Below are positions 30,997 to 49,302 of a stretch of 64,000 nucleotides of DNA, in pieces. Every line of letters starts with the position of its first letter. The first letter of the stretch is position 1. The notes beneath the pieces were generated by a model. The model was not told the origin of the DNA and did not search any database. It saw nothing but the letters and a program-made list of their open reading frames with translations. The position numbers were made by a program, and so were the translations under genes. The DNA lies in contig NZ_JNXT01000009.1 of the NCBI RefSeq assembly GCF_000716675.1, forward strand, positions 109,467-173,466. Reading direction: 5' to 3'. Source of the DNA: Streptomyces alboflavus. Its GTDB lineage: Bacteria; Actinomycetota; Actinomycetes; Streptomycetales; Streptomycetaceae.

Positions 30997-31503
30997 GTGC
31001 AGGGCATCCCCCACATAGCCAGCACACCGCACGACGGGCGTTCGTCGCCCGTACCCCCTGCGCGCGGGGCGCGGCCCACGGGCCGTGACATGACGCCGCG
31101 CGTGCCGTACGAGGCCGCGACACCGCGCGTGCCGTACGAGGCGGCGACGCCGCACGCGGCCCCGGTGACGCGGCACCCCCGGGCCGCCGACCCGCAACTG
31201 CCCGTGTTCATCGACGAGTCGGGCTGGCGCCGACGGGCCCTGCAAGGGGTCGCGGTCGTCGTGAGCTGCGCCTGCGTCGGGTATCTGCTGTTCGTCGGCA
31301 CGCTGATGAGCGGGCTGCTGCGGCCCGTCGGCACGCAGCCGCCGAGCACGAACGAGTCGGTGCCCGCGGGACCCGACACCGGCAAGCGGGCGCAGCGCTC
31401 CGACGCGTCGGGGCGGACCGACGCCCACGCGGACCGCGACAGCCACCGCCGCCCGTCCTCCGGCAGATCCGTTCGACCCCCGGCCGGAGGCCCCGGGCAG
31501 TGA
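30997..31503 (+). CDS. matA: MatA-like membrane protein of the Mat polysaccharide locus
   Basis: A 168-residue protein with a disordered N-terminus (containing the duplicated nonapeptide TPRVPYEAA), one transmembrane helix (ALQGVAVVVSCACVGYLLFVGTL, residues ~82-104) and a polar tail. AGGAG lies 5 nt before the GTG at 30997. Its stop overlaps the start of the fused deacetylase/GT2 gene by GTGA. In streptomycetes matA and matB form exactly this arrangement and produce a poly-N-acetylglucosamine-type adhesive responsible for pellet formation. The symbol rests on gene order and on recognition of MatB next to it; MatA itself is poorly conserved. Confidence 0.65.
   Translation: MQGIPHIASTPHDGRSSPVPPARGARPTGRDMTPRVPYEAATPRVPYEAATPHAAPVTRHPRAADPQLPVFIDESGWRRRALQGVAVVVSCACVGYLLFVGTLMSGLLRPVGTQPPSTNESVPAGPDTGKRAQRSDASGRTDAHADRDSHRRPSSGRSVRPPAGGPGQ
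31093..31146 (+). repeat. 27-bp in-frame tandem duplication in matA
   Basis: Two copies (31093-31119 and 31120-31146) encode TPRVPYEAA twice in the disordered N-terminus; they differ at three synonymous positions, so the duplication is not brand new. Confidence 0.8.
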
Positions 31504-33602
31504 GGCGCGGCGCCGCTGTCCGCCGCCCGCCGCGCGGACACTGGCTCGTGCTCCTCCTCGTCCTGCTGGTGGTCGCCGTCACCCTCCTCTTCGAGGGCTG
31601 GACGACCCACCAGGTCGACGCCGCGCGCACCAAGCCGCCGTGCACCCGGCCGATCCCGCGCGCGGCGGACGACGGGAAGCCGCTGCTCCGGTTCGGCCCG
31701 AAGGGCGTCACCACCGCGGCCATGCCGCCGGGTACCGTCGCGCTCACCTTCGACGGCGGGCCCGACCCGGTGTGGACGCCGCGCCTGCTCGACCTGCTGC
31801 GCAGACACCAGGCGCGGGCGACCTTCTTCGTCTACGGCAAGGACGCCGCCCGGCACCCGAAGCTGCTGCGGCGGATCCTGTACGAGGGCCACGAGATCGG
31901 CTCGTACACCTACAGCGGCGGCGATCTCGGCGTAGCGTCGGCGCTGCGCGCCCGCCTGGAACTGTCGCTCACGCAGACCGCCCTCGCAGGCGCCGCGGGT
32001 GTCAACACCAGGCTGCTGCTGCTGCCGCACACCACGGCCGCGGACACGCTCTGCGGCCCCCAGTGGCCCGCGGCGAAGCGCGCCGCCGAGCAGGGGTACC
32101 TGGTGGTCGCGTCCGACTACAAGGACCGCAAGCCGTGGCGTGGCCTGGTGTCGCAGCACAGCCAGACCGACCTGGGCTACCGCGAGGCGCAGGACCTGCT
32201 GCGGGACCGCCGCGTGCAGCGGTTCACGACCATCAGCGGCGGACTCGGGCGGCCTTCGTTCGTCGACGCGGTCCCGGTCGCCGACGAGGTCAAGGGCGCG
32301 GGTCTGATCTGGTCGAAGAAGCTCGGGCAGGCCTTCCTCACCGTGATGGTGTGGACGCTGACCCTCGCGGGCACGCTCGGCGTCCTGCGGATGCTCCTGT
32401 TCACGGTGTTCGCCCGGCTCCACGTGCGCAGGCTGCACCGGTACCGTCCCGGCGCGCCACGGCTGCGCGAAGTGCGGGACCCGGTGACGGTGCTCGTGCC
32501 CGCGTACAACGAAGAGGCCGGTATCGCCTCCACCGTGTACTCGCTGCTCGCCTCCACCCATCCGCACTTCCAGATCATCGTGATCGACGACGGCTCCACC
32601 GACGCGACCGCCGACATCGCCGAGTCCATCGCCGACGCCGACCCGCGCGTGACGGTGATCCGGCAGCCCAACGGCGGCAAGCCGAGCGCCCTCAACACCG
32701 GCCTGGCGCACGCCCGGTACGACATCGTGGTGATGGTCGACGCTGACACGATCTTCGAACCGGAGGCCCTGGCCCGCCTCGTCCAGCCGCTCGCCCACCC
32801 GGCGGTCGGCGCGGTCAGCGGCAACACCAAGGTCGGCAACCGGCGCAGTCTGATGGGCAAGTGGCAGCACCTGGAGTACGTGCTCGGCTTCAACCTCGAC
32901 CGGCGGATGTTCGAGGTCCTGGAGTGCATGCCGACGGTGCCGGGGGCGATCGGCGCCTTCCGCAGGGACGCGCTGATGGGCGTCGGCGGTGTCAGCGACG
33001 AGACCCTCGCCGAGGACACCGACCTCACGATGGCGCTCTGGCGGGCCGGCTGGCGCGTCGTGTACGAACAGTCGGCGGTCGCCTGGACCGAAGTGCCGGG
33101 CACCCTCAGGCAGTTGTGGCGCCAGCGCTACCGCTGGTGTTACGGCACCCTCCAGTCGATGTGGAAGCACCGGCGCGCGGTGGTGGAGGTCGGCCCCGCC
33201 GGACGCTTCGGCCGCCGGGTGCTGCTCTACGTCACGCTGTTCCAGATCGTGCTTCCGCTGTGCGCGCCGGTCGTCGACATGTTCGCGCTGTTCGGGGCGC
33301 TGTTCCGCGACCCCGTGGAGGCTGCCCTCGTCTGGTTCGGGTTCCTCTCCGTGCAGCTGGTCACCGCCGCGTACGCGCTGCGGCTCGACCGTGAACGGCT
33401 GCGCGTGCTGTGGGTGCTTCCGCTCCAGCAGTTCGTCTACCGGCAGTTGATGTACCTGGTGGTCATCCACTCCGTGACCACGGCACTGCTCGGAACGCGG
33501 CTGAAGTGGCACAGCATGAAGCGCGCGGGGACCGCCGACCCGTATCTGCTCGAAGCGCCGCCCGACGAGACGCGGCGGAGCCTGCAAGGGAGCCGACCAT
33601 GA
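31500..33602 (+). CDS. matB: MatB-like fusion: polysaccharide deacetylase domain plus GT2 glycosyltransferase
   Basis: A 700-residue membrane protein. It has an N-terminal transmembrane helix, a NodB/CE4-like domain (residues ~75-260), two or more helices, and a processive family-2 glycosyltransferase (residues ~320-560: VPAYNEEAG, VIDDGSTD, DxD in MVDADTIFEP, EDTDLTMALWRAGWRV, and the QxxRW equivalent RQRYRWCYGT), followed by C-terminal membrane helices. Such MatB proteins make a PNAG-like extracellular polymer. The GT2 part looks fully active. The deacetylase part has lost its key residues: TFDGGP for TFDDGP, GSYTYSGGDL for GNHTYTHPDL, LLLLPHT for FRPPYG. It is coupled by GTGA and ATGA overlaps to matA and the LCP gene. 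Confidence 0.85.
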   Translation: MRRGAAVRRPPRGHWLVLLLVLLVVAVTLLFEGWTTHQVDAARTKPPCTRPIPRAADDGKPLLRFGPKGVTTAAMPPGTVALTFDGGPDPVWTPRLLDLLRRHQARATFFVYGKDAARHPKLLRRILYEGHEIGSYTYSGGDLGVASALRARLELSLTQTALAGAAGVNTRLLLLPHTTAADTLCGPQWPAAKRAAEQGYLVVASDYKDRKPWRGLVSQHSQTDLGYREAQDLLRDRRVQRFTTISGGLGRPSFVDAVPVADEVKGAGLIWSKKLGQAFLTVMVWTLTLAGTLGVLRMLLFTVFARLHVRRLHRYRPGAPRLREVRDPVTVLVPAYNEEAGIASTVYSLLASTHPHFQIIVIDDGSTDATADIAESIADADPRVTVIRQPNGGKPSALNTGLAHARYDIVVMVDADTIFEPEALARLVQPLAHPAVGAVSGNTKVGNRRSLMGKWQHLEYVLGFNLDRRMFEVLECMPTVPGAIGAFRRDALMGVGGVSDETLAEDTDLTMALWRAGWRVVYEQSAVAWTEVPGTLRQLWRQRYRWCYGTLQSMWKHRRAVVEVGPAGRFGRRVLLYVTLFQIVLPLCAPVVDMFALFGALFRDPVEAALVWFGFLSVQLVTAAYALRLDRERLRVLWVLPLQQFVYRQLMYLVVIHSVTTALLGTRLKWHSMKRAGTADPYLLEAPPDETRRSLQGSRP

Positions 33603-34852
33603 CAGACCCGCTCGACCAGCGGGCCGGGGACTGCCCGCCCGCGCGGGAGCCCGGCCCGCTGGAGGACGCCACCGCGCCCGATCCGGCTCAGCGCTTCACC
33701 GACCGCCCCAGCTCCCGCTACGGCCCCCGGCGCGCCCACGCCCGCCAGCCGAAGAGGAAGCGCCGACGGCTGCGGCGGGCCCTGCTCGTCCTCCTCGCCG
33801 TGGTCGTCGTCGCGGCGGGCGGCGCGTACGGATGGGCCGAGACCCGGCTCCGGCGTGACGTCGACCTCGGCGCGTACGGGGACCGGCCGCCGCCCGGCGA
33901 GGGCACCAACTACCTCATCGTGGGCTCAGACAGCCGTGACGGGCTCTCCGAGGGCGACGTGCAAGATCTGCGTGCGGGCGGGGGCGGCGGGCGGCGCACC
34001 GACTCGATGATGCTGCTCCACACCGGCGCCCACGGCACCAGCATGGTGAGCCTGCCGCGCGACTCCTGGGTCACCGTGCCGGGCCGCCTCGACACCCTCA
34101 CCGGCAAGATGAAGCACCCCGAGGGCGACAAGCTGAACGCGGCCTTCGCCTACGGCGGCCCCGAACTCCTGGTCCACACCGTCGAGAAGAACACCGGCCT
34201 GCGCATCGACCACTACGCGGAGATCGGTTTCGCCGGGTTCGTGAACATCGTCGACGCCATCGGAGGCGTACGCATGTGTCTGGACCGGGACATCAAGGAC
34301 AAGAAGTCGGGTGCCGACCTGCGCAAGGGCTGCCAGACCCTGGACGGCCGGCAGGCACTCGCCTTCGTGCGCCAGCGGCACCAGGAGCGGGAGGGCGACC
34401 TCGGCCGCTCCAAGAACCAGCAGAAGTTCCTCTCGACCCTCGCCCACCAGGCCGCCCGCCCCGGCACGCTCTTCGACCCGACGGAGATCGGCCCCGCCCT
34501 GCGGGCCGGCCTCGACACCCTCATCGTCGACAAGGACATGAGCCTGCGCGACCTCGCCACGATGTTCCGCGCCGTGCAGGGTGTCGCGGGCGGGAAGGGC
34601 AAGCAGATCAACGTCCCCGTGTCCGGTATCGGCGTCCCCACCTCCAAGGGCAACGTCCTGAAGTGGGACGCGAAGCGGTCCGCCCGCCTCTTCGCCGACC
34701 TGCGGCACGACCGGCCCGTGACGGAGACGGGGGAGACGTCCCGGCAGCGCGAGCGGGGCGGCAGGGACCGCCCCGCCGGACGGCGAGCCGGGGCAGTCGC
34801 CCCTCAGGACTGCTCCGGCACCAGGAACTCCCGCAGGTCCACGACCCCGTAG
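33599..34852 (+). CDS. LytR-CpsA-Psr (LCP) family polymer-cell wall ligase
   Basis: A 417-residue LCP protein that attaches glycopolymers to peptidoglycan on the outer face of the membrane. A basic cytoplasmic segment and one transmembrane helix (RALLVLLAVVVVAAGGAYGW) precede the catalytic domain. Conserved features are present: IVGSDSRDG, RTDSMMLL, SLPRDSWV, KLNAAFAYGGP and FVRQRHQEREGDLGRSKNQQ, which supply the Arg/Asp residues that bind the pyrophosphate-lipid donor and Mg2+. The ATG overlaps the matB stop (ATGA), so it is probably the ligase for the Mat polymer. Its last 49 bases overlap the convergent deacetylase gene. Confidence 0.88.
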   Translation: MTDPLDQRAGDCPPAREPGPLEDATAPDPAQRFTDRPSSRYGPRRAHARQPKRKRRRLRRALLVLLAVVVVAAGGAYGWAETRLRRDVDLGAYGDRPPPGEGTNYLIVGSDSRDGLSEGDVQDLRAGGGGGRRTDSMMLLHTGAHGTSMVSLPRDSWVTVPGRLDTLTGKMKHPEGDKLNAAFAYGGPELLVHTVEKNTGLRIDHYAEIGFAGFVNIVDAIGGVRMCLDRDIKDKKSGADLRKGCQTLDGRQALAFVRQRHQEREGDLGRSKNQQKFLSTLAHQAARPGTLFDPTEIGPALRAGLDTLIVDKDMSLRDLATMFRAVQGVAGGKGKQINVPVSGIGVPTSKGNVLKWDAKRSARLFADLRHDRPVTETGETSRQRERGGRDRPAGRRAGAVAPQDCSGTRNSRRSTTP

Positions 34853-35547
34853 CCCGCCGCCCCGATCGCGTCGAGGATCCGGGGGAGCGCCTGGGCGTCG
34901 AGCACGACCCCGCCGGTGCTGCTGCCCACGTGCATCTGGATGATCGCGCCGGGCGCGAGGGCGTCGACGGCCCGCTCGACCACCCGCTCCACGGTCATGC
35001 CGCGGCCCGGCCCCAGATAGCCGTTGGTGTCCGTGGTGAACTCGATCGCCGCGTACCCGAGAGCGTTGACGTCGGCGACCGACGCGGTCGTGGTGGAGCT
35101 GTAGGGGAAGCGGAAGAACGGCAGCGGCTCGGTCCCCGCCGCGGCCCGGATCGCCGCGTCGGCGCGGCGCACCTGCCGGTGGCGTGCGGCGGTGCTCAGG
35201 CCGTCGAAAGAGGGGTGGCTGTGGGAGTGGTTGCCGAGGCCGTGCTCGGCGCCCATGGCCCGCACCGCCGCGGGGTGGGCCTCGGCGTACTCCCCGGTCG
35301 GGAAGAACGTCGCCGCCAGGCGTCGGCGCCGCAGCTCGGCCAGGACCACGTCGACGCCCCGCTCGTCCCACGCCGCGTTGAAGGTCAGCGCCACCACCTC
35401 GCGTGCCGTGGGCAGCCGGCGGATCTCCCTGCCAAGCAGGGAGTCCGGCGGGTGGGGGCCCGCGGCCGCGGCCCGCCCCGCCGCCAGGGGCACGAGACCC
35501 GTGGCTGCCAACAACCCTGCCAGGACGGCCCGTCGTGTGGAGTCCAT
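34804..35547 (-). CDS. Secreted polysaccharide deacetylase (NodB/CE4 fold), Tat-type signal
   Basis: A 247-residue exported CE4-fold protein. The N-terminus MDSTRRAVLAGLLAATGLVPLAAG has a twin-arginine-like signal ending near AAAAG. The motifs are LTFNAAWDERG (motif 1, with Asn where the catalytic Asp usually is, but with AAW as in YlxY/PdaA-like members), GNHSHSHPSF (motif 2, metal His pair intact), FFRFPYSST (motif 3) and QMHVGSSTGG (motif 5). It probably binds metal; activity is uncertain. It is convergent with and overlaps the LCP gene, and could supply deacetylation that MatB's degenerate domain cannot. The frame extends upstream, but the signal fixes the start at 35547. Confidence 0.82.
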   Translation of the reverse strand: MDSTRRAVLAGLLAATGLVPLAAGRAAAAGPHPPDSLLGREIRRLPTAREVVALTFNAAWDERGVDVVLAELRRRRLAATFFPTGEYAEAHPAAVRAMGAEHGLGNHSHSHPSFDGLSTAARHRQVRRADAAIRAAAGTEPLPFFRFPYSSTTTASVADVNALGYAAIEFTTDTNGYLGPGRGMTVERVVERAVDALAPGAIIQMHVGSSTGGVVLDAQALPRILDAIGAAGYGVVDLREFLVPEQS

Positions 35548-35897
35548 GGTGCGTGAGTCTGCGGGCGCCAGAGCCCTCGCCCGTGCACGCCGTGCCGCGC
35601 AACCGGGTGGTCCCGGCGGCGCTCCGGCACGGGAAGCGCCGAGGTCGCCCGTGCGCGGAGACGCGGCCGACTCGGACTTGCATCCTCCGCTTCTCCGTGC
35701 CGCACGGGCCGCTGGCGCGGACTCGCGGTTCGACTGGCCGATAGGCATACATGTATGACTCGTTGGAGTGACGGTGCCCAGGGTTCGGTTTTCCGGTACC
35801 CGGGGCGGGCATCCCGTGGAGCGGCACGCTGTCGACACGCGACTCGGCCCACGCGGTTCGGCATCCGGAGCCAAGAGGCTCGCCAGGGGGTGGCTGG
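35548..35897. promoter_or_regulatory. 350-bp divergent region between deacetylase and P450, with a 12-bp palindrome
   Basis: No gene is supported here. The rightward half must hold the promoter of the P450-precursor operon. The most striking element is the perfect palindrome CATACATGTATG (35746-35757), AT-rich against a GC-rich background, 141 bp before the P450 start. It is a plausible operator. I could not match a clear -35/-10 pair. Confidence 0.35.
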
Positions 35898-37070
35898 ATG
35901 CACATGGGGGACAGGCGCCGGTTTCGGCAGGATCCGCTGGAATACCTCGAAGACCTCCGTCGCCGCAGCACGACGGGTCTGATTCCGCTCCCCTGGGGCG
36001 GCTGGTGCGTCAGCGACACGGAGCTGGCGCAGACGTTGCTGCGCAGCCCGGAGTACAACGGAGGCAGGTCGGGCTTCTTCGGCGCACTCCTGCCCACCCG
36101 CGACGCCCAGATCGAGGTCGGCCACGCGGTACGCGACCTGATGCGCGCCGGCGTACCGCACTACCGCGCCGCACTGACCCGTGCGGCGGCCGACCTCCCC
36201 GCCGTCGGCCGCTGGCCCGACGCCGGGACGCGGCTGGTCCACCGGGGCCTGGAGGACCTGCTGCTCCACCCCGAAACCCCCGCCCGCACCCGTGAGTTGA
36301 TGCGCCGGGCCGCGCTCGGCGGCGTGGCGGTCCGCGCGCCGCACGTGTGGCAGCGGGCCCGTGCGGAGGTGCTGCGCCCCCAGCTGCTCGCCGCCCTGAC
36401 CGAGGAGGCGGCGCACCGCAGGGAGGACCCCGCCCGCGAGCCCCGGGACGTCCTGGACGCCGTGCTCAGCGCGTGCCCTCCCGGTGAGACGGGCGACCGG
36501 ACCGTGGCCGAGCTGCATCTGATGATGTTCCGGGCGGTCATGGCGCCCCTCAGCTCCTCACTGGCGTGGTCCGTGCTCCTCGCGTGCCTGCGCCACCGGG
36601 CGGCCTCGCCCTGGCCGTGGCCCGCCGACGACATCGTGCGCGAGGCCCTGCGGCACCGTCCCATGGCCTGGATGCTAGGCCGCGTCCTCCCGCAGGCCGT
36701 CAAGCTCGGCGGCACCGCCTTCGAAGCGGGCGACCTCGTGTCCGTCAGCCCGTACCTGCTGCACCACGACACCCGCCACTGGGCCGACCCCGACGCGTTC
36801 CGGCCCGAGCGCTGGACCGGCACGGACACCCGGCACGGCCCCTATATCCCGTTCGGCGCGGGCCCCTTCACCTGCGCCGGCGCGGCGGTGGCGCACACGC
36901 TGATCACCGACTCGCTGACCGCCCTGTCCCGCGACGCCCACCTGACCGTCACGGGCGGCGACACCCGCCCGGCCATGGCCGAGGGCAACGTTCCCCGGCC
37001 GTTCACGCTCCGCCGCACGCTCAAGCCACCTGCCGAAGGCGACACCGGACCCGACACAGGAGGGAGGTGA
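35898..37070 (+). CDS. Cytochrome P450, probable RiPP cross-linking enzyme
   Basis: A 390-residue soluble bacterial P450. The haem-binding loop is FGAGPFTCAGAAVAH (Cys near residue 326) and the K-helix ExxR is EALRHRP (near residue 248). The I-helix segment reads FRAVMAPLSSSLAW: the usual (A/G)Gx(D/E)T oxygen-activation motif is replaced, as in some P450s that cross-link aromatic side chains. No ferredoxin gene is nearby. Six nt after its stop begins a 19-codon gene ending in WYWY, and the Shine-Dalgarno sequence of that gene forms the last P450 codons. The pair matches tryptorubin/cittilin/biarylitide-type systems, in which one P450 joins Trp and Tyr residues of a short core. ATGs at 35898 and 35904 are both possible. 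Confidence 0.9.
   Translation: MHMGDRRRFRQDPLEYLEDLRRRSTTGLIPLPWGGWCVSDTELAQTLLRSPEYNGGRSGFFGALLPTRDAQIEVGHAVRDLMRAGVPHYRAALTRAAADLPAVGRWPDAGTRLVHRGLEDLLLHPETPARTRELMRRAALGGVAVRAPHVWQRARAEVLRPQLLAALTEEAAHRREDPAREPRDVLDAVLSACPPGETGDRTVAELHLMMFRAVMAPLSSSLAWSVLLACLRHRAASPWPWPADDIVREALRHRPMAWMLGRVLPQAVKLGGTAFEAGDLVSVSPYLLHHDTRHWADPDAFRPERWTGTDTRHGPYIPFGAGPFTCAGAAVAHTLITDSLTALSRDAHLTVTGGDTRPAMAEGNVPRPFTLRRTLKPPAEGDTGPDTGGR
37063..37070 (+). promoter_or_regulatory. Perfect Shine-Dalgarno of the precursor peptide, overlapping the P450 stop
   Basis: GGAGGTGA is fully complementary to the 16S rRNA 3' end. It ends with the P450 TGA stop and sits 6 nt before the ATG at 37077. The upstream AGGAGGG extends it. 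This arrangement should give strong, coupled translation of the small peptide. Confidence 0.85.
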
Positions 37071-37076
37071 ACAGCA

Positions 37077-37136
37077 ATGGCCACGATGCGTCGCATCTTC
37101 ACCAACCAGCCGGCCCGCCGCTGGTACTGGTACTGA
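37077..37136 (+). CDS. Precursor peptide of a P450-modified RiPP (19 residues, ends in WYWY)
   Basis: The whole product is MATMRRIFTNQPARRWYWY, followed by TGA. It is too short for routine ORF calling, but it has the strongest ribosome-binding site of the region, 6 nt from its ATG, starts 6 nt after the P450 stop, and is followed 24 nt later by a perfect terminator hairpin. The likely leader is residues 1-15 and the core is the C-terminal Trp-Tyr-Trp-Tyr, possibly with the preceding Arg. Cores made almost entirely of Trp/Tyr at the extreme C-terminus are the hallmark of P450-cross-linked peptides (tryptorubin AWYIWY, cittilin YIYY). The product should be a small, rigid macrocycle with biaryl or C-N bonds. 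No protease or exporter is encoded nearby. Confidence 0.85.
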   Translation: MATMRRIFTNQPARRWYWY

Positions 37137-37159
37137 CCCTGACAGTGCCACCACACGGT

Positions 37160-37188
37160 GGCCCGGACGTCGCCCAGACGTCCGGGCC
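37160..37188. terminator. Perfect 12-bp-stem terminator after the precursor gene
   Basis: GGCCCGGACGTC (37160-37171), loop GCCCA, GACGTCCGGGCC (37177-37188). It begins 24 nt after the precursor stop and lies 30 nt from the stop of the convergent GTPase gene, so it can end both transcripts. Confidence 0.85.
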
Positions 37189-37218
37189 ATCCAGGCCGCT
37201 TGGCCCGACGGCCGCCGC

Positions 37219-38763
37219 TCAGCCGCGCAGACACCACTCGACGAACACCCCGATGCTGGGGTCCACACGCCCCCGCTCGTCCGCGACCGCCGCCGTGCAG
37301 AAGAACCGGACCTCGCCGAACTCGAGGTCCATCGCCCGCACCAGGTTCCGCAAGCCCAGCCGCTCGCGCAGCCACGTCCGGATGGCATCGCTGTCGTCCG
37401 GGGGGTCGGGCAGCAGGGCGGGCTGCCCGGCGAGGAGATCCCGCTTGCTGACGGCCACGGCGAGCCGCGCCTTGTCGAGACGCTTGCCCATCGTGTGGAC
37501 CGTCTGCACCGACGGAGAGAACACGTCCTCCGGGTCGACCGTCGACGCCAGCGTGCCGTCCACCGTCGGGCGCTCCGGGGTGAGGCGGGTCCAGAACGCG
37601 TCGACGGCCATCGGGTCCAGGACGAAGACGAAGGTGCGGGCCGCGCGGACATAGCGCAGCGCGTCGGTCTCCTCCCGGTTGACGAACCGCTCACCGGCCG
37701 TGTCGAAGACGTGCACGAGGCGCTCGGCGCGACCGTCGCCGAGCACGAACGAGTGGGCCCTGGGCAGCGTCTTCTGCGTGGGGCGGGTGTGGCCCCGGAT
37801 CTCCAGGACCTCGTTCAGGACCTGCTGGGCGGCGGTCGATTCGGGATCGGCGAGCCGGACCGCGGGGCCGCCGTCCGCCGCCGTGTCCTCCAGCGACTTC
37901 ACCATCGCGGCCATCAGCTGCGTCTTGCCCGCGGCCCGGCCGCCGACCAGCGGCAGGACCAGCTCGGGCATGTGTCCGGCGTCCGGATTCATCGGCTTGC
38001 CGCAGTGCTCGTGCGCGCAGTGACCTGCGAGGCGGGCGTCCCGGCTCATGAACAGCAGCAGGGTCGGTATCCGGCGGTCGCAGGCGCACCGGCGCCGGAA
38101 CAGGCCGAAGGTGCCCGGGCGGATGTCCGTGTGCCGCCGCCGACAGGACGGGTTCGGGCAGTCGTACGCGGGATGGGGGACGCGTTCGAAGCAGCTCGGG
38201 CACAGCATGCCCCGGGGCAGCCCGCGCAGGGCCATCACCGCGCGGTCGGTGCCCCGCAGGGCGAGCGCGGTCAGCCGGGCGCCGACGGTCAGCAGTCCCA
38301 CGCCGAGGGCCTGTACGGCGAAGAGCACGCCCCACAGCGGCAGCGTGACCGCGGCGCCGATGCCGAGGCCCAGGCAGAGGGTCAGGCCGTACGGGATCGA
38401 GGCGGCCCGGTGCACGGTCGGCGCGGTGAACTGGCGGTCGGTCACCCGGCGGTAGGCGTCCTCGACCGAGCGGACGTACAACCGCCGTCCCTGGGTCAGG
38501 AGTTGACGCAGGTCACGGACGGCGGGGCCGGAGAAGTAGTTGCGGTGGGCCAGTTCGTCGGCGGGGCGGTACGGCGGGACCGTCACGAACTCGGGGGTGC
38601 GCAGACGCAGCACTCCGTGCAGCAACTGGACGTAACGCCAAAGGAGTTCACTGACCAGGGCGGCCCCGCGCAGGACCGCGATCAGCGGGGCGACGAACAA
38701 ATAGAGCGCGAGCAGGACCAGATAGAGCGCCGGGACGACGATGAAGGTCAGGATCTCCGCCAT
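37219..38763 (-). CDS. Membrane-anchored zinc-ribbon GTPase (DO-GTPase2-like)
   Basis: A 514-residue protein, last of the ten-gene conflict operon. Two N-terminal hydrophobic helices (residues ~5-40) and a second pair (~125-165) bracket a cytoplasmic segment. Then come zinc ribbons (CPSCFERVPHPAYDCPNPSC; CACDRR; CAHEHCG) and a GTPase domain with P-loop LPLVGGRAAGKTQL, switch II HVFDTAGERF and the base-specificity motif AVSKRDLL. This architecture matches the GTPases described as double-GTPase 2 in NTP-dependent bacterial conflict systems, which pair with GAP1 proteins and a second GTPase, as here. It starts 7 nt after the GAP1-like stop. The role is inferred: membrane-associated signalling switch. 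Confidence 0.75.
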   Translation of the reverse strand: MAEILTFIVVPALYLVLLALYLFVAPLIAVLRGAALVSELLWRYVQLLHGVLRLRTPEFVTVPPYRPADELAHRNYFSGPAVRDLRQLLTQGRRLYVRSVEDAYRRVTDRQFTAPTVHRAASIPYGLTLCLGLGIGAAVTLPLWGVLFAVQALGVGLLTVGARLTALALRGTDRAVMALRGLPRGMLCPSCFERVPHPAYDCPNPSCRRRHTDIRPGTFGLFRRRCACDRRIPTLLLFMSRDARLAGHCAHEHCGKPMNPDAGHMPELVLPLVGGRAAGKTQLMAAMVKSLEDTAADGGPAVRLADPESTAAQQVLNEVLEIRGHTRPTQKTLPRAHSFVLGDGRAERLVHVFDTAGERFVNREETDALRYVRAARTFVFVLDPMAVDAFWTRLTPERPTVDGTLASTVDPEDVFSPSVQTVHTMGKRLDKARLAVAVSKRDLLAGQPALLPDPPDDSDAIRTWLRERLGLRNLVRAMDLEFGEVRFFCTAAVADERGRVDPSIGVFVEWCLRG

Positions 38764-38770
38764 CGCGGGC

Positions 38771-41215
38771 TCACCCCTCTTCCGGCCGGGGCGCGTCCGG
38801 TGAGCGCCGCTGGGTGAGCTTGCGGCTCCACTTCTTCACGCGGCCCCTGCGGCTCTCGGCGTACTCCCGATAGGTGTCGGCGAGCCCGGTGCTGTACGGG
38901 CGGAGCGCGCGGGCCAGGCGCTCCAGCTCGTCGGGCGGCCAGTGCAGCGCGACGTGGTGGCGCAGCGTCCGGACGGTCTCCAGCTGCGCGTGCGGCAGCC
39001 CGGACCGTTCGTCGTTGATCGCCACCACCCCGGTGACATGGCCGAACAGCACCTCGTCGGGTCGGCCGGAGGCGACGGCGGCATCCAGGACGGCGCGCAG
39101 ATAGCCGTCGGCCAGGGTGAAGCCGAACTCCCTGATGTCCGTGCGCAGGCGCGCCGGGTCCACGGGCAGCGGCAGCATGGCGGGGACGAGCCGGTGCCGC
39201 TTCAGGGCCAGGGGCGGCGCCCAGACCTCGATCTGCGGGATCCGGAACGCGCGGGCGAGCGCGGTGGCCTCGGTCGCCTCGCGCAGGACCGCGTCCAGCT
39301 GGAGAGTGACCTGCACGCACTCCTGCGTGACGGGCCGCAGCCAGGCGTAGCGGCCGGGCGCCGACAGCGTCTCGCACAGCACCAGGCAGGCCCGCAGGTC
39401 CCGTTCGTCCCTGATCTTCTGCTTCACCGCGCGGTCGAACCACTCGCCGACCGCATCGGTCACCGGCTCGTCCGCAGGCAGCCGACGGGCGATCACGGTG
39501 GCCTCCTCGTGCGTCCAGGTCGGCGACGGCTGCCGCCACAGCCCCCGCAGCAGCGCCGCGTCCGGCGCGGCCTCGTCGCGCGCCGCCAGGATCTGGAACA
39601 GCAACTCGATCGTGCGGGCGGGCTGCCGCTCGGCCTGTGCCACCCAGTAGTGCTCCAGGAGCCGCCCCCGCCCGGCGAGGTCGCGCTCGACCAGCAGATC
39701 GGCGGGGAACTGGGTGAACAGCTGCTCCTGGCCGCCCCGTTCGTCCAGGACCTCCTGCACCGCCGTCGTCAGCGCCGACCTGAACTCCGGGAGGGCGTGC
39801 ACGAGGCGGGCGACGTCCTCACGCAGCCCGGGGCCCGCGTCGCAGGAGCCGAGGAGCGCGCGGGCCAGGTCAAGGCTCTGGTCCACGACCAGATCCGGCG
39901 CCGGGTCGAGCCGCGCGCCCACCGCCCACAGCAGCAGCCGCACCCGCTGCAGGCTGGTGGCGGCCTCGTCGAGCAGCCACTGCCACAGGGCCGTGGCCCG
40001 CTCCCGCTCGGCGGGACGGGTGATCGGCACCGGGCCCGGCGCGTTCGGAACTCCGGTCATGTAGGCGCGGATCCGGGACTGGTGGAGCTTGCCCTCCAGC
40101 TCCTGGTGCAGCGCGGCGTCGCCGCCCGCCTCGGCGGCCGCGCTGAGCCGCGCGAGCTGGTCGTCGTCCAGGTCCCGGTGCCGGTGGTGGATGTCCGCCG
40201 CCACCGCCGCCCGGCGCGGCCCGAGATGATCGGCGCCGGGCAGCCAGTCGACCACCGCGCGGACATCGGCGTCGGTCAGCTCGATGCCGCCCGCCGCGGC
40301 GGCCGCCGCCACCGGAGCGTGCCAGTCGCCGAGCGCCCGCTCCTGGCCGTGCGTGTACTCGGCCGTCCAGGACCACACCGAGCGGATCGAGCCGACGCCG
40401 ATCCGGGTCAGCAGCCGGATCAGATGGTGCGTGGGCACCACGTCGGGGAAGCGGCCCGCGCGGAAGTCGAAGACGGTGTACGACTCCTCGTCGTCGGGCC
40501 CGAAGTCGGGGTGCGCCTCGGGCACCGTGCCGATCAGGTGCAGTCGGCTGCGGGTGGGCCGCAGGAGGTAGGTGGCGAAGGTGAGGGTGCGGGCCAGCGG
40601 GGGCGGCAGGAGGTAGGAGACGGCCGCGAACCAGTGGGCGATCCGGTCCGTCGTCTCGTCGATCACGACGACCGAGCCGTCCTCCGCGAGGGCCGCGAAC
40701 ACCGCCGCGAGGAGGGCGGGGAGCTGCTCGGCGCCCGGGTGCGCGCGCAGGAAGGCATGTGCCGCGCGCGGGGACAGCGGGCCGCGGGGCAGGGGCGCGG
40801 GCAACTCCGGGATCTCGGTCGTGTCGGCGATCCGGGTGGTCCACACCGGGGAGTCCCACAGCTCGATGGCGAGCGGACCGCCGCTCTGCCGCGCGCCCTC
40901 GTCCGCGCTGTGCAGGGCGTGGGCGAAGTAGTTGCCGAAGCGCCGCGCCGAGTCCCGGCCGACGTACCGCACGCACAGCGTGGTGGCACCGCCCCGGCGG
41001 TCCAGGGTGTGGCACAGGTTCACCGGGCAGCGGGCGAGCAGCTCCGGGGCGTCCGACTCCAGCAGGGAGCGCGGCGGTTCGTACCCGGCAAGGCCCTCCA
41101 CGCGGTGCCGGGTCTCGGCCGACACCTGCTCGCTGACCGCGTTGAACTGGAAGCCGGAGGAACCGCTGAGCCCGTGCTCGCAGGACGTGTAGTAGAGCTG
41201 CTGGAAGCCGCTCAT
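38771..41215 (-). CDS. GTPase-associated protein 1-like (GAP1 N2-M-C) conflict-system protein
   Basis: An 814-residue soluble protein. The first ~140 residues (GFQQLYYTSCEHGLSGSSGF, then FNYFAHAL-like HALHS) match the N-terminal GAP1-N2 domain as I remember it; a middle part and a long helical C-terminal half follow. No nucleotide-binding motif is seen. It sits between two GTPase genes: its start overlaps the upstream GTPase stop (ATGA) and its stop lies 7 nt before the next start. The consistent three-gene block suggests it regulates, or is regulated by, the two GTPases. The family name is from recollection of the Aravind group's classification and should be checked with an HMM. Confidence 0.7.
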   Translation of the reverse strand: MSGFQQLYYTSCEHGLSGSSGFQFNAVSEQVSAETRHRVEGLAGYEPPRSLLESDAPELLARCPVNLCHTLDRRGGATTLCVRYVGRDSARRFGNYFAHALHSADEGARQSGGPLAIELWDSPVWTTRIADTTEIPELPAPLPRGPLSPRAAHAFLRAHPGAEQLPALLAAVFAALAEDGSVVVIDETTDRIAHWFAAVSYLLPPPLARTLTFATYLLRPTRSRLHLIGTVPEAHPDFGPDDEESYTVFDFRAGRFPDVVPTHHLIRLLTRIGVGSIRSVWSWTAEYTHGQERALGDWHAPVAAAAAAGGIELTDADVRAVVDWLPGADHLGPRRAAVAADIHHRHRDLDDDQLARLSAAAEAGGDAALHQELEGKLHQSRIRAYMTGVPNAPGPVPITRPAERERATALWQWLLDEAATSLQRVRLLLWAVGARLDPAPDLVVDQSLDLARALLGSCDAGPGLREDVARLVHALPEFRSALTTAVQEVLDERGGQEQLFTQFPADLLVERDLAGRGRLLEHYWVAQAERQPARTIELLFQILAARDEAAPDAALLRGLWRQPSPTWTHEEATVIARRLPADEPVTDAVGEWFDRAVKQKIRDERDLRACLVLCETLSAPGRYAWLRPVTQECVQVTLQLDAVLREATEATALARAFRIPQIEVWAPPLALKRHRLVPAMLPLPVDPARLRTDIREFGFTLADGYLRAVLDAAVASGRPDEVLFGHVTGVVAINDERSGLPHAQLETVRTLRHHVALHWPPDELERLARALRPYSTGLADTYREYAESRRGRVKKWSRKLTQRRSPDAPRPEEG

Positions 41216-42399
41216 CCGCGGCCCGCCTTCGGCACCGACCCGAACTCGCTCAGCAGCCACAGCAGCGGGTCCGCCACCCGGTAGGGCTGGATGCCGGTGG
41301 CGGCCACGCGGGCCTCGGGCGTCGCGCTGCGGCCCAGCGCGGAGACGCCGAAGTAGCGGTAGCGGGCGAAGGTGTTCTCCAGGGACTGGTCGATGGGCAC
41401 GCCGTCCCACTCCTTGAGCAGCTGGCGCACCTCCTCGTGGACGCTGAGGCTGTCGCCGACGTCGAAGCGGCCGCGCGCGGGCGCGTGCGACCGCAGCGGG
41501 CTGCCGTTCTCCATCAGATGCCAGAAGGCGTCCATCTTGGAGAAGACCACCGCGATCGGGGTGTCTGTCTTCGCCGCCTTGCCGCCCCGCGCGGCGAGCA
41601 GCAGGCCGCTCACCCGGCTCAGCACGTTGATCGGCGGATCGATGCCGTCGGTGCCGGGCAGGGCGGTGCCGGGCGCCGCGCTGTCCCGGGCGCCCGGCAT
41701 CTGCAGCGGGTCGAGCAGCAGGATGATGCCGTCCGCGTTCGTCAGGTAGCGGGTGTTCAGCTCCACGCTCTCGCGGCTGTTGAAGTCCTCGCCCGCCGTG
41801 TCGAAGAACGACAGGACGCTGTGCTGCGGCCGCTCCCCGAACAGCGTCTTGCGGCGGAGCCCGAACCTGAACACCAGCGGGTCCACCCGGTTGGCGTTGG
41901 TCGTCGCGGTCTGCGTCGGCGGGAACATCTGCCGGTCGCGGTAGAGCCGGTCCTCGTACTCCGAGCTGTAGCGGCGCATGGTGGTGTCGTCCAGACCCAT
42001 CAGCGAGGCGCCGTAGGCCTCGCCGACCTGGTTGCGCATCTCGTGCAGGAGCACCGTCATGTAGATCGTCTTGCCGGAGGAGCGCGCGCCCACCATCGCG
42101 ATCAGCCGGTTCTCCACCATGCCGAACTGCACCGGCAGTTCGACGTGGCAGACCGGGCAGACGCGGTAGGTGGTCTCGCCGTCGCAGTCCGGGCACACCG
42201 CCGTCGACCTGCGCCCGTCGGCGGCGAAGTCCGGGCCCACGTCGTGGCTCGGACGCCTGCCGAAGCGCTCGTCGAGCACCGGGTCGCGGCGCCGCTGGCA
42301 CTGCTTGCGGGTGCGGCTGAGCCGGCTGTTGCAGCGGAACCGGATCTCGCGCGGGGCGAAGGTCTCGTAGCAGTAGGGGCAGGTGAGTCGTCTGGCCAT
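41212..42399 (-). CDS. Zinc-ribbon GTPase (DO-GTPase1-like)
   Basis: A 395-residue GTPase. Two Cys-rich zinc ribbons at the N-terminus (CPYCYETFAPREIRFRC and CPDCDGETTYRVCPVC) precede a GTPase domain with P-loop IAMVGARSSGKTIYM, switch II SFFDTAGEDFNSRE and VVFSKMDAFW as the NKxD-like motif. No membrane helix is present. It is the soluble partner of the membrane GTPase at 37219 and directly follows the Hsp70-like gene with no intergenic base (TGA-ATG). Confidence 0.77.
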   Translation of the reverse strand: MARRLTCPYCYETFAPREIRFRCNSRLSRTRKQCQRRRDPVLDERFGRRPSHDVGPDFAADGRRSTAVCPDCDGETTYRVCPVCHVELPVQFGMVENRLIAMVGARSSGKTIYMTVLLHEMRNQVGEAYGASLMGLDDTTMRRYSSEYEDRLYRDRQMFPPTQTATTNANRVDPLVFRFGLRRKTLFGERPQHSVLSFFDTAGEDFNSRESVELNTRYLTNADGIILLLDPLQMPGARDSAAPGTALPGTDGIDPPINVLSRVSGLLLAARGGKAAKTDTPIAVVFSKMDAFWHLMENGSPLRSHAPARGRFDVGDSLSVHEEVRQLLKEWDGVPIDQSLENTFARYRYFGVSALGRSATPEARVAATGIQPYRVADPLLWLLSEFGSVPKAGRG

Positions 42400-44049
42400 T
42401 CAGGTCACTCGCAGCCGGTGCAGCGCCGTGGGGCGCAGGTCGATGTCGGTGTCGGGGGCGTCCGCCGGGAAGCAGACGAGCCAGGAGGGGCCCCGGGTGC
42501 CGGGGAAGGGGAACTTCACGACGAGCGGGGCACCGGCGGGCAGGCGCTGGGCGGGCACTTCGTGCAGGACGGCGCCCTCGGCCGTGCTGGTGGGGCGGTA
42601 GCGGCCGAGCCCGTGGACGACGTGGACGGCGGGGAGGTCGCAGCCGGTCCGGGTGGCGAAGGCGACGGTCGCGTAGCGGGTGCCGTTGAGGCGGCGGCGC
42701 AGCGTCGGTTCGTACTCGACGATCGGCGGTTCGGCAGCGATCCGCAGGGACGCTGCGCCCTCGGTGTCGACGGCGGGGTCGGGGACCAGGGCCTCGACGG
42801 TGAGGGTGACGGCGCCCCGTCCGAGGCGGAGGTCCAGGCCGCCGTCGTGTTCGTAGACCCGGCGCTGACAGCGGATGTCGCCGTCGCGGGGGCCGTCGCC
42901 GCCGGCGCTCGCGTCCTCACGGCGCCAGCGGACCCGAGCGGTCAGGGCGGCGTCGGGCCAGGCCCAGAGGACGAGGAGGTGGTCGTCCCGGCGGATGGCC
43001 TGGAGCTGGGTCACGGGGACGGAACGCTGGCGGGGCGCCTCCGGCGACGGGGGCGGTTGGGGTGGGGGTTCGCCTGCGGCTTCTGAGGGTGGGGTCGGGG
43101 TGGGATCGGGGGTGGTTTCGGTTGGTGGTTGGCTGTGGGGTGGTGGGGGCTGGTCGCGCAGTTCCCCGCGCCCCTTCGGGGTGGTTTCGGTCTGTGGTTC
43201 GCTGCGGGGCGGTGGGGGTTGATCGCGCAGTTCCCCGCGCCCCTGGGAGGCCGTTGGTCCGCTGTCGGCCGGTGAGGGGTCCTCGCGGTCCTTCAGCGCG
43301 CTCGCAGGGGGGATGCCGTGTGGTTCGGGGTCTTCCGCCGGTGTGGGCCAGGCTCCCGGTTCCGGGTCCTCCAGGGGAGGGGGGAAGCCGGTGCTCGCCG
43401 GTGCCGGGCCGGTGGCGACGCGCAGGAGCCCGAAGTCCTCCAGGAGCAACAGGCCGTGCACGACGGCCAGTTCGGGTGTACGGCAGCGGACCGTCAGGCC
43501 CTGGGCCTCGGGAAGGCTCTCGACGTCCGCGCGGCGGGCGGGCGTGGCGTACAGGTCGCCGGAGAGGAGCACGGCGTCCGGGGCGGCCTCCGCCAGCTCC
43601 CGGGCCAGCGCCGCCAGGCCGTGGTCGTCGGCCAGTTGTGCCGTGCGCGTGGTGACGACGCGCACCGTCAGGTCCGGGGTGATGGCGAGGACCGTGAGGT
43701 CCACCGCCCCCGCCGTCTGGTCGGCCACCAGGACCGTGCGGTGCACGCCCTCGGCTATCGCGCCGTAGTGCAGGGCCGCCGCGACCGGCTCCGGCACGAT
43801 CCTGCTGACGCGCAGGCCGACGTCCTCGGCGGCCCGCCGCAGCCGCGCCTCGGCCCGGCGGTCGGCGGTCGCGGGCAGGGCGAGCGCCGCCTCCTCGTCG
43901 GTGGCTCCGGCGCCGAGCACGGCCAGCGCGGAGGCGGGGTCGGCGGCCACGTCCGCTCCGGCCAGGTCCGTCACCGTCACGGTGGGGCGGCCGTCCGGGG
44001 CGAGGCGGCCGACGCGGGCGACGCGGAGGCCGATGGCGATGGCGAGCAT
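42400..44049 (-). CDS. Degenerate Hsp70/actin-fold protein of the conflict operon
   Basis: A 549-residue protein. Residues 1-220 resemble a trimmed Hsp70 nucleotide-binding domain: ATADRRAEARLRRAAEDVGL, then RIVPEPVAAALHYGAIAEG, which corresponds to the Hsp70 segment IxEPxAAAxAYG. The N-terminal phosphate-1 loop is poor (MLAIAIGLRVARVG). A Pro-rich linker (~220-340) with a 23-residue tandem repeat follows, then a C-terminal beta-rich domain (~200 residues) of unknown type. Such Hsp70-like proteins accompany kinases, vWA and AAA proteins in predicted actinobacterial conflict operons. Translation is tightly spaced with both neighbours (4 nt and 0 nt gaps). Confidence 0.65.
   Translation of the reverse strand: MLAIAIGLRVARVGRLAPDGRPTVTVTDLAGADVAADPASALAVLGAGATDEEAALALPATADRRAEARLRRAAEDVGLRVSRIVPEPVAAALHYGAIAEGVHRTVLVADQTAGAVDLTVLAITPDLTVRVVTTRTAQLADDHGLAALARELAEAAPDAVLLSGDLYATPARRADVESLPEAQGLTVRCRTPELAVVHGLLLLEDFGLLRVATGPAPASTGFPPPLEDPEPGAWPTPAEDPEPHGIPPASALKDREDPSPADSGPTASQGRGELRDQPPPPRSEPQTETTPKGRGELRDQPPPPHSQPPTETTPDPTPTPPSEAAGEPPPQPPPSPEAPRQRSVPVTQLQAIRRDDHLLVLWAWPDAALTARVRWRREDASAGGDGPRDGDIRCQRRVYEHDGGLDLRLGRGAVTLTVEALVPDPAVDTEGAASLRIAAEPPIVEYEPTLRRRLNGTRYATVAFATRTGCDLPAVHVVHGLGRYRPTSTAEGAVLHEVPAQRLPAGAPLVVKFPFPGTRGPSWLVCFPADAPDTDIDLRPTALHRLRVT
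43111..43248. repeat. 69-bp in-frame tandem duplication containing a GC-rich repeat element, inside the Hsp70-like gene
   Basis: Copies at 43111-43179 and 43180-43248 encode two 23-residue Pro/Gln-rich units (GRGELRDQPPPP...TETTP). Each includes the motif CGCGCAGTTCCCCGCGCCCC (minus strand GGGGCGCGGGGAACTGCGCG), which I recognise as a very common dispersed element of Streptomyces genomes. It appears to have been captured as coding linker and then duplicated. Confidence 0.75.
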
Positions 44050-44053
44050 GTGG

Positions 44054-46168
44054 TCAGCCCTCCCCTTCCCCGGTCCCGGCCCGCGGCTCGTCGGCCCTGA
44101 CCCACGGCGTGCCGTCGGCGTCGACGCCGAGCCGGATCCGGCTGCCCGGGGCCGGGCGGCGGGCCAGGAAGTGGGAGACCACGGCGGCCCGCAGCCGCTC
44201 CAGTTCGTTGCGGATCTGACGGCCGCCGTACGCCTGGTGCTCCGGGTCGCTCATCCGCTCGGTGATCCAGGGGTGCAGGCTGTCGGGGTCGGGGGCCAGC
44301 TTGACCTGGTGGCGTTCGCGGACGGACTCGGTGAGCTGGTCGAGGAGCCGGTCGGCGATCCGCACGATGTGCTCGCGGCGCAGCATGTCGAAGACGACCA
44401 CGCCCGGCTTGAGCCGCCCGTAGATCTCCGGCCGCCCGATCGCCCGGAACTTCTCCTCCACGGCCCGCGTGAAGTGCGCCTCCAGGGCCGCGTACGGCAC
44501 GTCCTCGTCGCCTTCGGACAGCAGGTCCTGGACCGCGTCCGCGCCCGTGTTGGAGGTGAAGATGATCAGGCACTGGGAGAAGTACGCGGTCTGGCCGCGG
44601 CCGTCGGTGAGGCGGCCGTCCTCCAGGATCTGGAGGAACTTGTCCAGGACCCGCGGGTGCGCCTTCTCGATCTCGTCGAAGAGGAGCACGCTGAACGGCC
44701 GTTCCTGGACGCGCCGGGTCAGCTCGCCGCCCTGCTCGTGGCCGATGTAGCCGGGCGGTGCCCCGGCGAGCCGCTCCGCCGCGTGCTCCTGCTGGTACTC
44801 GCTCATGTCGAAGCGGGCGTACGCGCTCTGGTCGCCGAACATCAACTCGGCCACGGCCTTGGCCAGTTCGGTCTTGCCGACGCCGGTGGGGCCGACGAAG
44901 AAGAAGGCGCCCCGAGGGCGTGCGGTGCCGGAGCCGCCGAAGTCCACGCCCACGTAGGCGGACCGGAGCGCGGCGGCCACCGCCTCGACGGCCGTGGACT
45001 GGCCGACCACCCGGTCGCCCAGGACGTCGGCCGCCCGGGCGACGGTGTCCCGGTCGAGCTGGGTCCAGGGGTCGACGCTCACATTGAGCCGGTGCAGTTC
45101 CAAGAGCTTGTCCGGTTTCTGGAGGGGTGCCTCGCGCAGCCACGAGGTCCGGGCGAGCGCGTCGATGTCCCAGCCCCGCATGCCGTCGGTCGCGCCGACC
45201 AGGGCCTCCAGGTCGTGCCGGGTGGCGTTCGTGGCGCCGTTGAAGTCGCCGCGCAGCCAGGTCAGCCACAGGCGGCGCTCGCTGGGGTCCGGCGGGCCGA
45301 CGTGCAGGGTGGCGATCCGGGGATCCTCCAGGTGGAACCAGCCGGGCAGCCGGCCGACGTCACCCACCGCGCACAGGACGGCGTTGCGGGCATGCGGACG
45401 GCGGCCCGCCTGGGCCACGTGCGCGGGCACGGCGTCCGTCATCGCGGCGCGCAGACGGAGGTAACCGGCGTTCGACTCGGGCTGGCCGGGCGGGAGGTGG
45501 TGGTCGACGTCCTGGAAGACGAAGGCCGTGGCCGCGTCGGGGGACGCGGCGAGCCGGTGCGCGACGGCGACGGCGTCGTCGAAGGCGCGCGGCGGGGCGC
45601 CCGGGCGCGGCGCGAGCAGGCTCGACCGGTCGCGGCGGCGTTCGGCGCCGCGCTGGGTGCGCGCGTCGGACCGTGGCCGGCCGTCCTCGGGGGCGCGTGA
45701 GTCGGCCTGGGTCCGGTCGTCTTCGAGGGGGCCCGATGCGGCCCCCGCCCGGCCGTCGTCGGGGGCGCCCGACGCGGCCCATGGCCGACTGCCTCCAGGC
45801 GCGCGGGAGTCGGACCGCCGGTCGGCCCCGGGCGCGGCCGGTCCCGCGCTCCTCGTGCCGCCCCCCGGCCGGTCCGCCGCCAGCCGCGCGAAGCGTTCCG
45901 CGTGGCCCGGCAGCGGGAACGTGAGCCCGGCCACCGGATCCCACCAGCCCACCACGTCGGCGCCGCGCACCTCGAGCACCCCGGCGACCAACTCGCGGAA
46001 GGAGGCGGGCCGGTCCTCGAACCACCAGCGGTCCCGGATCTGCCCGCTGATGACCACCTGCCGGCCGCGCCGCAGCTCCCAGCCGAGCGACACCGCCCAC
46101 AGCGGCATCATGCCGTCGGCGGTGACGGGCCCCGTACCGTCGTCCTTGCCGAAGTCGATCGCGCTCAC
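44054..46168 (-). CDS. ClpB-like AAA+ ATPase of the conflict operon
   Basis: A 704-residue AAA+ protein. The C-terminal half is a full ClpA/ClpB D2-type module: Walker A FVGPTGVGKTELAKAVAEL, pore-loop segment APPGYIGHEQGGELT, Walker B SVLLFDEIEKAHPRVLD, sensor 1 FTSNTGAD, and the C-terminal small domain. The N-terminal ~110 residues resemble a second, nucleotide-free AAA or CbxX-like domain (WAVSLGWELRRGRQVVISGQIRDRW) followed by a repetitive acidic linker. So only one ring should hydrolyse ATP. The GTG at 46168 overlaps the previous stop. It may unfold or remodel partners in the same operon. Confidence 0.85.
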   Translation of the reverse strand: MSAIDFGKDDGTGPVTADGMMPLWAVSLGWELRRGRQVVISGQIRDRWWFEDRPASFRELVAGVLEVRGADVVGWWDPVAGLTFPLPGHAERFARLAADRPGGGTRSAGPAAPGADRRSDSRAPGGSRPWAASGAPDDGRAGAASGPLEDDRTQADSRAPEDGRPRSDARTQRGAERRRDRSSLLAPRPGAPPRAFDDAVAVAHRLAASPDAATAFVFQDVDHHLPPGQPESNAGYLRLRAAMTDAVPAHVAQAGRRPHARNAVLCAVGDVGRLPGWFHLEDPRIATLHVGPPDPSERRLWLTWLRGDFNGATNATRHDLEALVGATDGMRGWDIDALARTSWLREAPLQKPDKLLELHRLNVSVDPWTQLDRDTVARAADVLGDRVVGQSTAVEAVAAALRSAYVGVDFGGSGTARPRGAFFFVGPTGVGKTELAKAVAELMFGDQSAYARFDMSEYQQEHAAERLAGAPPGYIGHEQGGELTRRVQERPFSVLLFDEIEKAHPRVLDKFLQILEDGRLTDGRGQTAYFSQCLIIFTSNTGADAVQDLLSEGDEDVPYAALEAHFTRAVEEKFRAIGRPEIYGRLKPGVVVFDMLRREHIVRIADRLLDQLTESVRERHQVKLAPDPDSLHPWITERMSDPEHQAYGGRQIRNELERLRAAVVSHFLARRPAPGSRIRLGVDADGTPWVRADEPRAGTGEGEG

Positions 46169-49300: not shown

Positions 49301-49302
49301 GC

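Follow-up and report, generated by a model that had tools for sequence, protein, structure and literature searches.

The window, which is the whole stretch of 64,000 nucleotides analysed here, belongs to a 9.7 Mb genome of Streptomyces alboflavus and carries a cytochrome P450 gene followed on the same strand by a very short ORF that ends in WYWY. The following features are located there (positions are those of the window).

35898..37070, + strand: cytochrome P450 gene (390 aa; PF00067), with an alternative ATG at 35904
36540..36569, + strand: I-helix stretch MAPLSSSLAW, from the alignment with family, hyalucidin-type and TrpB-type rows
36849..36881, + strand: heme-binding loop PFGAGPFTCAG with Cys326, read in the sequence
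37059..37067, + strand: strong Shine-Dalgarno sequence GGAGGGAGG for the peptide gene, located in the last three codons of the P450, read in the sequence
37077..37136, + strand: precursor peptide gene, MATMRRIFTNQPARRWYWY and stop, downstream of the P450 in 29/29 loci
37089..37124, + strand: leader motif RRIFTNQPARR with the first core Trp, from the motif scan with controls
37122..37133, + strand: predicted core WYWY, invariant in 10/10 WYWY loci, with predicted limits
37159..37189, + strand: 13-bp hairpin, a likely terminator shared with the convergent gene, from stem and folding energy; no T run

The P450 gene matches PF00067 with 85.2 bits (cut-off 22.8) and ends with the TGA at 37068-37070. 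The closest database P450, which has 388 aa and is also from Streptomyces alboflavus, is 98% identical to it. Cys326 is invariant across the 89-row P450 alignment, and the I helix is devoid of the usual acid-alcohol pair, as it is in the TrpB-type and hyalucidin-type rows aligned beside it. After a spacer of 6 nt the peptide ORF begins with the ATG at 37077 and ends with the TGA at 37134-37136, and its 19 codons encode MATMRRIFTNQPARRWYWY; this order of P450 gene, 6 nt and small ORF, as the original prediction had it, is read directly in the sequence. The arms of the hairpin occupy positions 37159-37171 and 37177-37189 around a loop of 5 nt, and RNA folding of 37137-37200 gives -37.8 kcal/mol (z -5.0). 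A perfect 12-bp-stem terminator had been proposed at this place: the perfect stem is there and has 13 bp, whereas its role as a terminator can only be called likely, because it is not followed by a T run and the intrinsic-terminator scan of the locus returned no match. Perfect stems of at least 6 bp within 80 nt of the peptide stop are present in 18 of the 27 family loci and in 9 of the 10 in the WYWY group, counts that have no control set beside them.

On one side the two genes are bordered by a divergent polysaccharide deacetylase gene (34804-35874, - strand), beyond which a single ORF (31500-33602, + strand) fuses a polysaccharide deacetylase domain with a family-2 glycosyltransferase; an LCP-family gene (33410-34852) is located beside this fusion. 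On the other side a convergent GTPase gene opens a run on the - strand (37219-50493) that looks like a GTPase-centred system, with Double-GTPase 2 proteins at 37219-38763 and 41212-42399, GTPase-associated protein 1 at 38771-41215, and also an Hsp70-like protein, an AAA ATPase, a Fer4_12 protein and a PP2C phosphatase. Domain annotation of the window neighbours revealed no protease, methyltransferase or exporter gene adjoining the cassette, which agrees, together with the comparison of nine loci, with what had been predicted. In that comparison (window, L003, L004 and six 17-kb stretches, L058-L063; flanks of 2-8 kb, ORFs of at least 100 codons) all gene groups common to at least five of the nine loci overlie the P450 or, in L003 and the window, are linked to frames that overlap it. 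No neighbour besides the P450 region is common to all nine, and the downstream GTPase genes are shared with the window by the S. flavofungini locus only. Therefore, the unit consists of the P450 and the peptide, and it is differently placed in different species.

Relatives of the P450 were drawn from 392 genomes of the genus, 297 of the family and 394 of the class, together with GTDB contigs and a plasmid collection, samples that overlap one another; a second draw of 393 genomes of the genus returned 10 matches, nine of them already known. The P450 family is present in 12 of the 392 sampled genomes of the genus, the genome of the window included. The 27 family loci carry P450s about 48-100% identical to that of the window (L026 by pieces). 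L009, L021, L031 and L032 were left out of these 27 owing to distant or unrelated P450s, as were L030, which is the same locus as L026, and the 12 hyalucidin-type loci. In L020, L039 and L040, whose frames were read directly, the peptide is present in all three. The P450 of L026/L030 (G088:C1:5867261-5867899) looks shortened, since the match covers residues 105-218 and 279-379 only, within one 299-residue frame; the WYWY peptide gene is intact there. In L041 (G426, 1275-2657, reverse strand) the P450 match is split over two frames that overlap, apparently through a frameshift or an error of assembly, and this accounts for the 163-nt gap to the peptide at that locus.

A scan of the 300 nt downstream of the P450 found, in 27/27 family loci, an ORF of 17-26 residues that carries the ungapped motif [RKH]R[IV][FLI]xxxPxxxW. 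The same motif was detected in 0/27 downstream stretches on the other strand, in 0/27 stretches upstream of the P450 on either strand and in none of 5,400 shuffled regions, the shuffles keeping base composition only. Since the motif was written after the 27 peptides had been seen, L064 and L065, which were fetched later and are the only held-out loci among the 29, serve as held-out tests; both carry it (MIAKIRRILSNTPAPYWAGTGGSWY in L064, MMAIIRRILTNTPPLIWNPKDPW in L065). Two simpler explanations were rejected: a chance ORF by the presence of the motif in 29/29 loci and its absence from the controls, and a precursor located upstream of the P450 by the 0/27 upstream stretches. An SD-like string precedes the peptide ORF in 26 of 27 loci, and in 19 of 27 the gap between the P450 and the peptide is at most 7 nt or the genes overlap.

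The original prediction had raised the questions of whether a small ORF ending in Trp or Tyr is conserved at orthologous loci and whether its codons are under selection. The peptide ORF with the motif is kept in all 27 loci and the WYWY core is invariant in 10 Streptomyces loci, the P450s of which are 64-80% identical to that of the window (one of them, in L026, broken). Over 16 codons of these 10 loci the pooled pairwise pN/pS, computed from non-independent pairs, is 0.19. For the 12-codon motif in the 27 loci the in-frame pN/pS of 0.67 stands against 0.85 and 1.68 in the two other frames; at such divergence this is a weak signal. The NCBIfam models gave no match to the three family precursors scanned, a 20-residue WYWY orthologue standing in for the window peptide. 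Judged from its conservation in sequence, the small ORF of the window is a genuine gene. The prediction of a minimal cassette of P450 and precursor, the precursor downstream and its aromatic core at the C-terminus, is borne out by the sequence and the 27-locus scan, and on these comparisons the P450 and the 19-codon gene are taken to be a genuine two-gene RiPP cassette that represents a distinct branch of P450-cross-linked RiPPs.

AlphaFold2 was run on a read-through fusion of the P450 and the precursor (89 alignment rows; 83 of the 120 relatives listed were used). The P450 part of the fusion model is good (mean pLDDT 86.1, pTM 0.87); the peptide is disordered and unplaced, with pLDDT under 50 at residues 397-412, and for this reason the model is uninformative on peptide docking. 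Fold searches with the window P450 returned the general P450 fold only among the best 50 matches listed in each. The best PDB sequence match, 9ulw, named 'Cytochrome P450' (E 2e-22, residues 11-374), is absent among the matches listed in the fold searches. The undocked peptide of the model, the hairpin after the ORF and the fact that no product is known for the cassette would agree with a P450 whose substrate is a small molecule and not the peptide, in which case the peptide or its DNA would have another role, such as expression control. We consider this highly improbable: residues are kept while synonymous codons change, the Trp pair described below is retained at varying spacing, and the same logic of P450 plus peptide is present in the tryptorubin- and hyalucidin-type relatives. 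Moreover, the peptide would be a poor leader peptide for the P450, because its ORF comes after the P450 gene.

In a tree of 63 P450 sequences, from which L026, L030 and L041 were left out owing to broken or split P450 frames, the window P450 and 24 further P450s of the family share a clade with 100/100 support, and the nine WYWY rows form one clade within the tree (100/99). The neighbouring clade (98/93) consists of P450-1 of the WYxYHHI-type (hyalucidin-type) loci. Seven TrpB-type P450s, from loci found via the AWYIWY pattern with KSLK leaders, form a separate and more distant 100/100 clade; the proposed comparison with TrpB-type enzymes thus leaves the window P450 outside them and nearest to the hyalucidin-type P450-1. 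A single deep row, L021, joins the family at weak support (88/62). In this locus (G184; P450 identity 34-37%) a precursor-like MRKFIRRLQDVTAKQAWRIW is located downstream, with a Trp spacing of 3 and outside the family motif.

The cores of the clade that holds WYWY are WYWY, WIWH, WFWV, WFWG, WNWA and WKW. Those of the other clade are WEPDVWL, WEPNVWL, WDPPVWL, WNPKEHW, WNPKDPW, WNPKDPWR and WSSSGSDWE, with two exceptions to the long spacing, namely WNW (L008, weak support) and WFRAS (L020); loci outside the tree have WNPRAPW (L041), WAGTGGSWY (L064) and WNPKDPW (L065). Of the 29 precursors, 28 retain the Trp pair, at a spacing of 2 in 16, 5 in 5, 6 in 5 and 7 in 2, and it is lacking only from WFRAS. 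In 13 of 29 the two Trp are the sole Trp/Tyr/Phe/His residues of the core (e.g. WKW, WNW, WNWA, WEPDVWL), and a terminal Tyr is found, beyond WYWY, only in WAGTGGSWY. The I-helix motif follows the class of the core: [A/V/S]P is present in the WYWY clade and GN, RN or GP..GY in the other, and the exceptional WNW locus also carries the motif of its own, long-spacing clade.

As the Trp pair is the substrate feature common to the family, a Trp-Trp bond is predicted. Bonds of this kind made by P450s (i,i+3), and Tyr-Trp bonds (i,i+2, Tyr-x-Trp), have been published (PMC11002830). We hold it to be fairly probable that the P450 of this two-gene RiPP cassette recognises the RRIF-x-N-x-P leader and joins Trp(i) of WYWY to Trp(i+2) as a small ring. 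Against this count the missing Trp pair of WFRAS (L020), the place of WNW (L008) in the long-spacing clade, the weak pN/pS signal over the 27 loci and the unplaced peptide of the fusion model. Moreover, the residue at i+3 of WYWY and WIWH is aromatic too, and known enzymes link such a residue to Trp (PMC11002830, PMC12352619). In the same cassette the main bond of WYWY could instead connect Trp1 and Tyr4 (i,i+3), giving a cyclic tetrapeptide in which Trp3 is a spacer or takes part in a second bond. This is the main rival since ScaB joins Trp1 and Tyr4 in WxxY cores (PMC12352619); PMC11002830 describes bonds from Trp(i) to Tyr or His at i+3, and the last Tyr of WYWY is invariant in the 10 loci, with His at i+3 in WIWH. 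On the other hand, an aromatic residue at i+3 is lacking in WKW, WNW, WNWA, WFWV and WFWG, therefore Trp1-Tyr4 cannot be the family-wide bond, and we regard it as unlikely to be the main one in WYWY.

The proximity of the hyalucidin-type P450-1 clade, the nearest named one, raises another alternative for the same cassette, namely Trp-Tyr chemistry of the kind suggested by the benzofuranoindoline in the title of the hyalucidin A paper (Yin et al. 2026, cited in PMC13417212), or several bonds as in tryptorubin, whose enzymes set several bonds in one core (PMC11450843). However, a second P450 is present in 12/12 hyalucidin-type loci and none adjoins the cassette here, and Tyr, Phe and His are all missing from 13 of 29 family cores; we regard this alternative as distinctly improbable.

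Returning to the predicted Trp-Trp bond, the following course of events is proposed. Both genes are on one strand and the ribosome-binding site of the peptide is in the last P450 codons, as the sequence gives it, and the genes are probably co-transcribed and translationally coupled. The leader, by its conservation, is the likely recognition element. The P450, having no acid-alcohol pair in the I helix, would perform radical coupling rather than hydroxylation, and additional Tyr bonds are possible in the WYWY-type members. Finally, the cell's own peptidases would likely cut near the ARR/W junction and release cross-linked WYWY or RWYWY. A wider reading, possible rather than probable in our estimate, would be that of a separate P450-RiPP family with its own RRI[FL]xNxP leader, whose homologous enzymes close Trp-Trp rings of stepwise size, from Trp-x-Trp, with three residues and here within WYWY, to Trp-x4-6-Trp, and whose I-helix motif next to the heme (AP versus GN..GY) would track the ring size; one enzyme family would then make a natural ring-size series.

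P450-cross-linked RiPPs are a known and growing kind: a review (PMC12299652) credits Liu 2024 with 1,057 clusters sorted into 11 categories and Nam 2023 with 19 new ones. What appears to be new here is the family's own leader, its P450 clade, the downstream precursor and the predicted type of bond. The family may already be listed, uncharacterised, in genome-mining studies. In the open literature, the core and leader strings of the family returned nothing relevant, the only match being one unrelated antimicrobial-peptide paper, and the combination of Trp-Trp, P450 and ribosomal peptide gave an unrelated match only; the search covered open papers, and absence from print is not claimed. Genes as short as the 19-codon precursor are often passed over by gene callers, so the product class is easily missed although the family occurs in 12 of 392 sampled genomes of the genus, and the leader motif offers a direct handle for mining it. 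The likely product would belong to a kind of natural product that has been little explored. Should the Trp-Trp reading hold, Trp-x-Trp and the longer rings would be linkages not met in the open literature covered, and a fixed leader combined with changing Trp spacing would make it possible to study how macrocycle size is set by a P450.

Among the known systems, the hyalucidin A family has the nearest named P450 clade, and it resembles the window family in the short precursor located downstream of the first P450 in its 12/12 loci and in the I helix without the acid-alcohol pair. It differs in its second P450, in its leader and in the WYxYHHI-type end; in the window a GTPase gene occupies the place of the second P450. 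The second P450 of the hyalucidin-type loci agrees with the title 'Tandem P450 Catalysis' (Yin et al., Angew 2026, cited in PMC13417212). Two of the 12 WYxYHHI-type precursors were scanned, both WYLYHHI, and both pass the cut-off of NCBIfam NF053510, the hyalucidin A family; this model gives no match to the 20-residue WYWY orthologue or to the WIWH and WEPNVWL precursors. P450-RiPP loci of three different kinds coexist in the genome G048, one from this family, one of the hyalucidin type and one of the tryptorubin type (L018, L028, L049).

The original prediction had placed the cassette with the tryptorubin and biarylitide systems, an assignment contradicted by the missing KSLK motif, by a P450 outside the clade of the seven TrpB-type enzymes and by a precursor of 19 residues versus five. 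Atropopeptides (tryptorubin A) share with it the two-gene unit of P450 and precursor and the Trp/Tyr-rich C-terminal core (PMC11450843), and they are defined there by a class P450, a KSLK leader and Trp at core position two. KSLK is present in 7/7 AWYIWY reference precursors and absent from the window peptide and the 27 family precursors, the P450 clade differs, and Trp stands at position two of the window core only if the core, whose limits are predicted, is read as RWYWY. Since the system thus falls outside the published definition, it is not an atropopeptide, and membership of the tryptorubin group was rejected on the KSLK motif and the P450 clade. The precursor is located upstream in the atropopeptide loci and downstream in the window family; the gene order, predicted to be reversed, is indeed so relative to 7/7 tryptorubin-type loci, but it is not unique, as the 12 hyalucidin-type loci have it likewise.

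Biarylitides also combine one P450 with a very short precursor, a pentapeptide with aromatic residues at positions 3 and 5, and have YxY-type aromatic pairs at i,i+2 (PMC13417212), whereas the window precursor has 19 residues and a Trp pair in place of Tyr/His pairs. The MRYLH pattern gave 4 matches in 199 genomes, without a clear P450 partner; one P450 upstream of such a match, in L054, entered the tree only as 'other', MRYLH reference enzymes being otherwise unused. A P450-made Trp-Trp bond is described for cihunamide, strecintide and scabrirubin (PMC11002830, PMC13250620, PMC11450843). In cihunamide (PMC11002830) and scabrirubin (PMC11450843) it spans i to i+3, a spacing present in 0/29 family cores. 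Taken by its gene architecture, the cassette would fit the cyptides, the superfamily of P450 biaryl-linked RiPPs.
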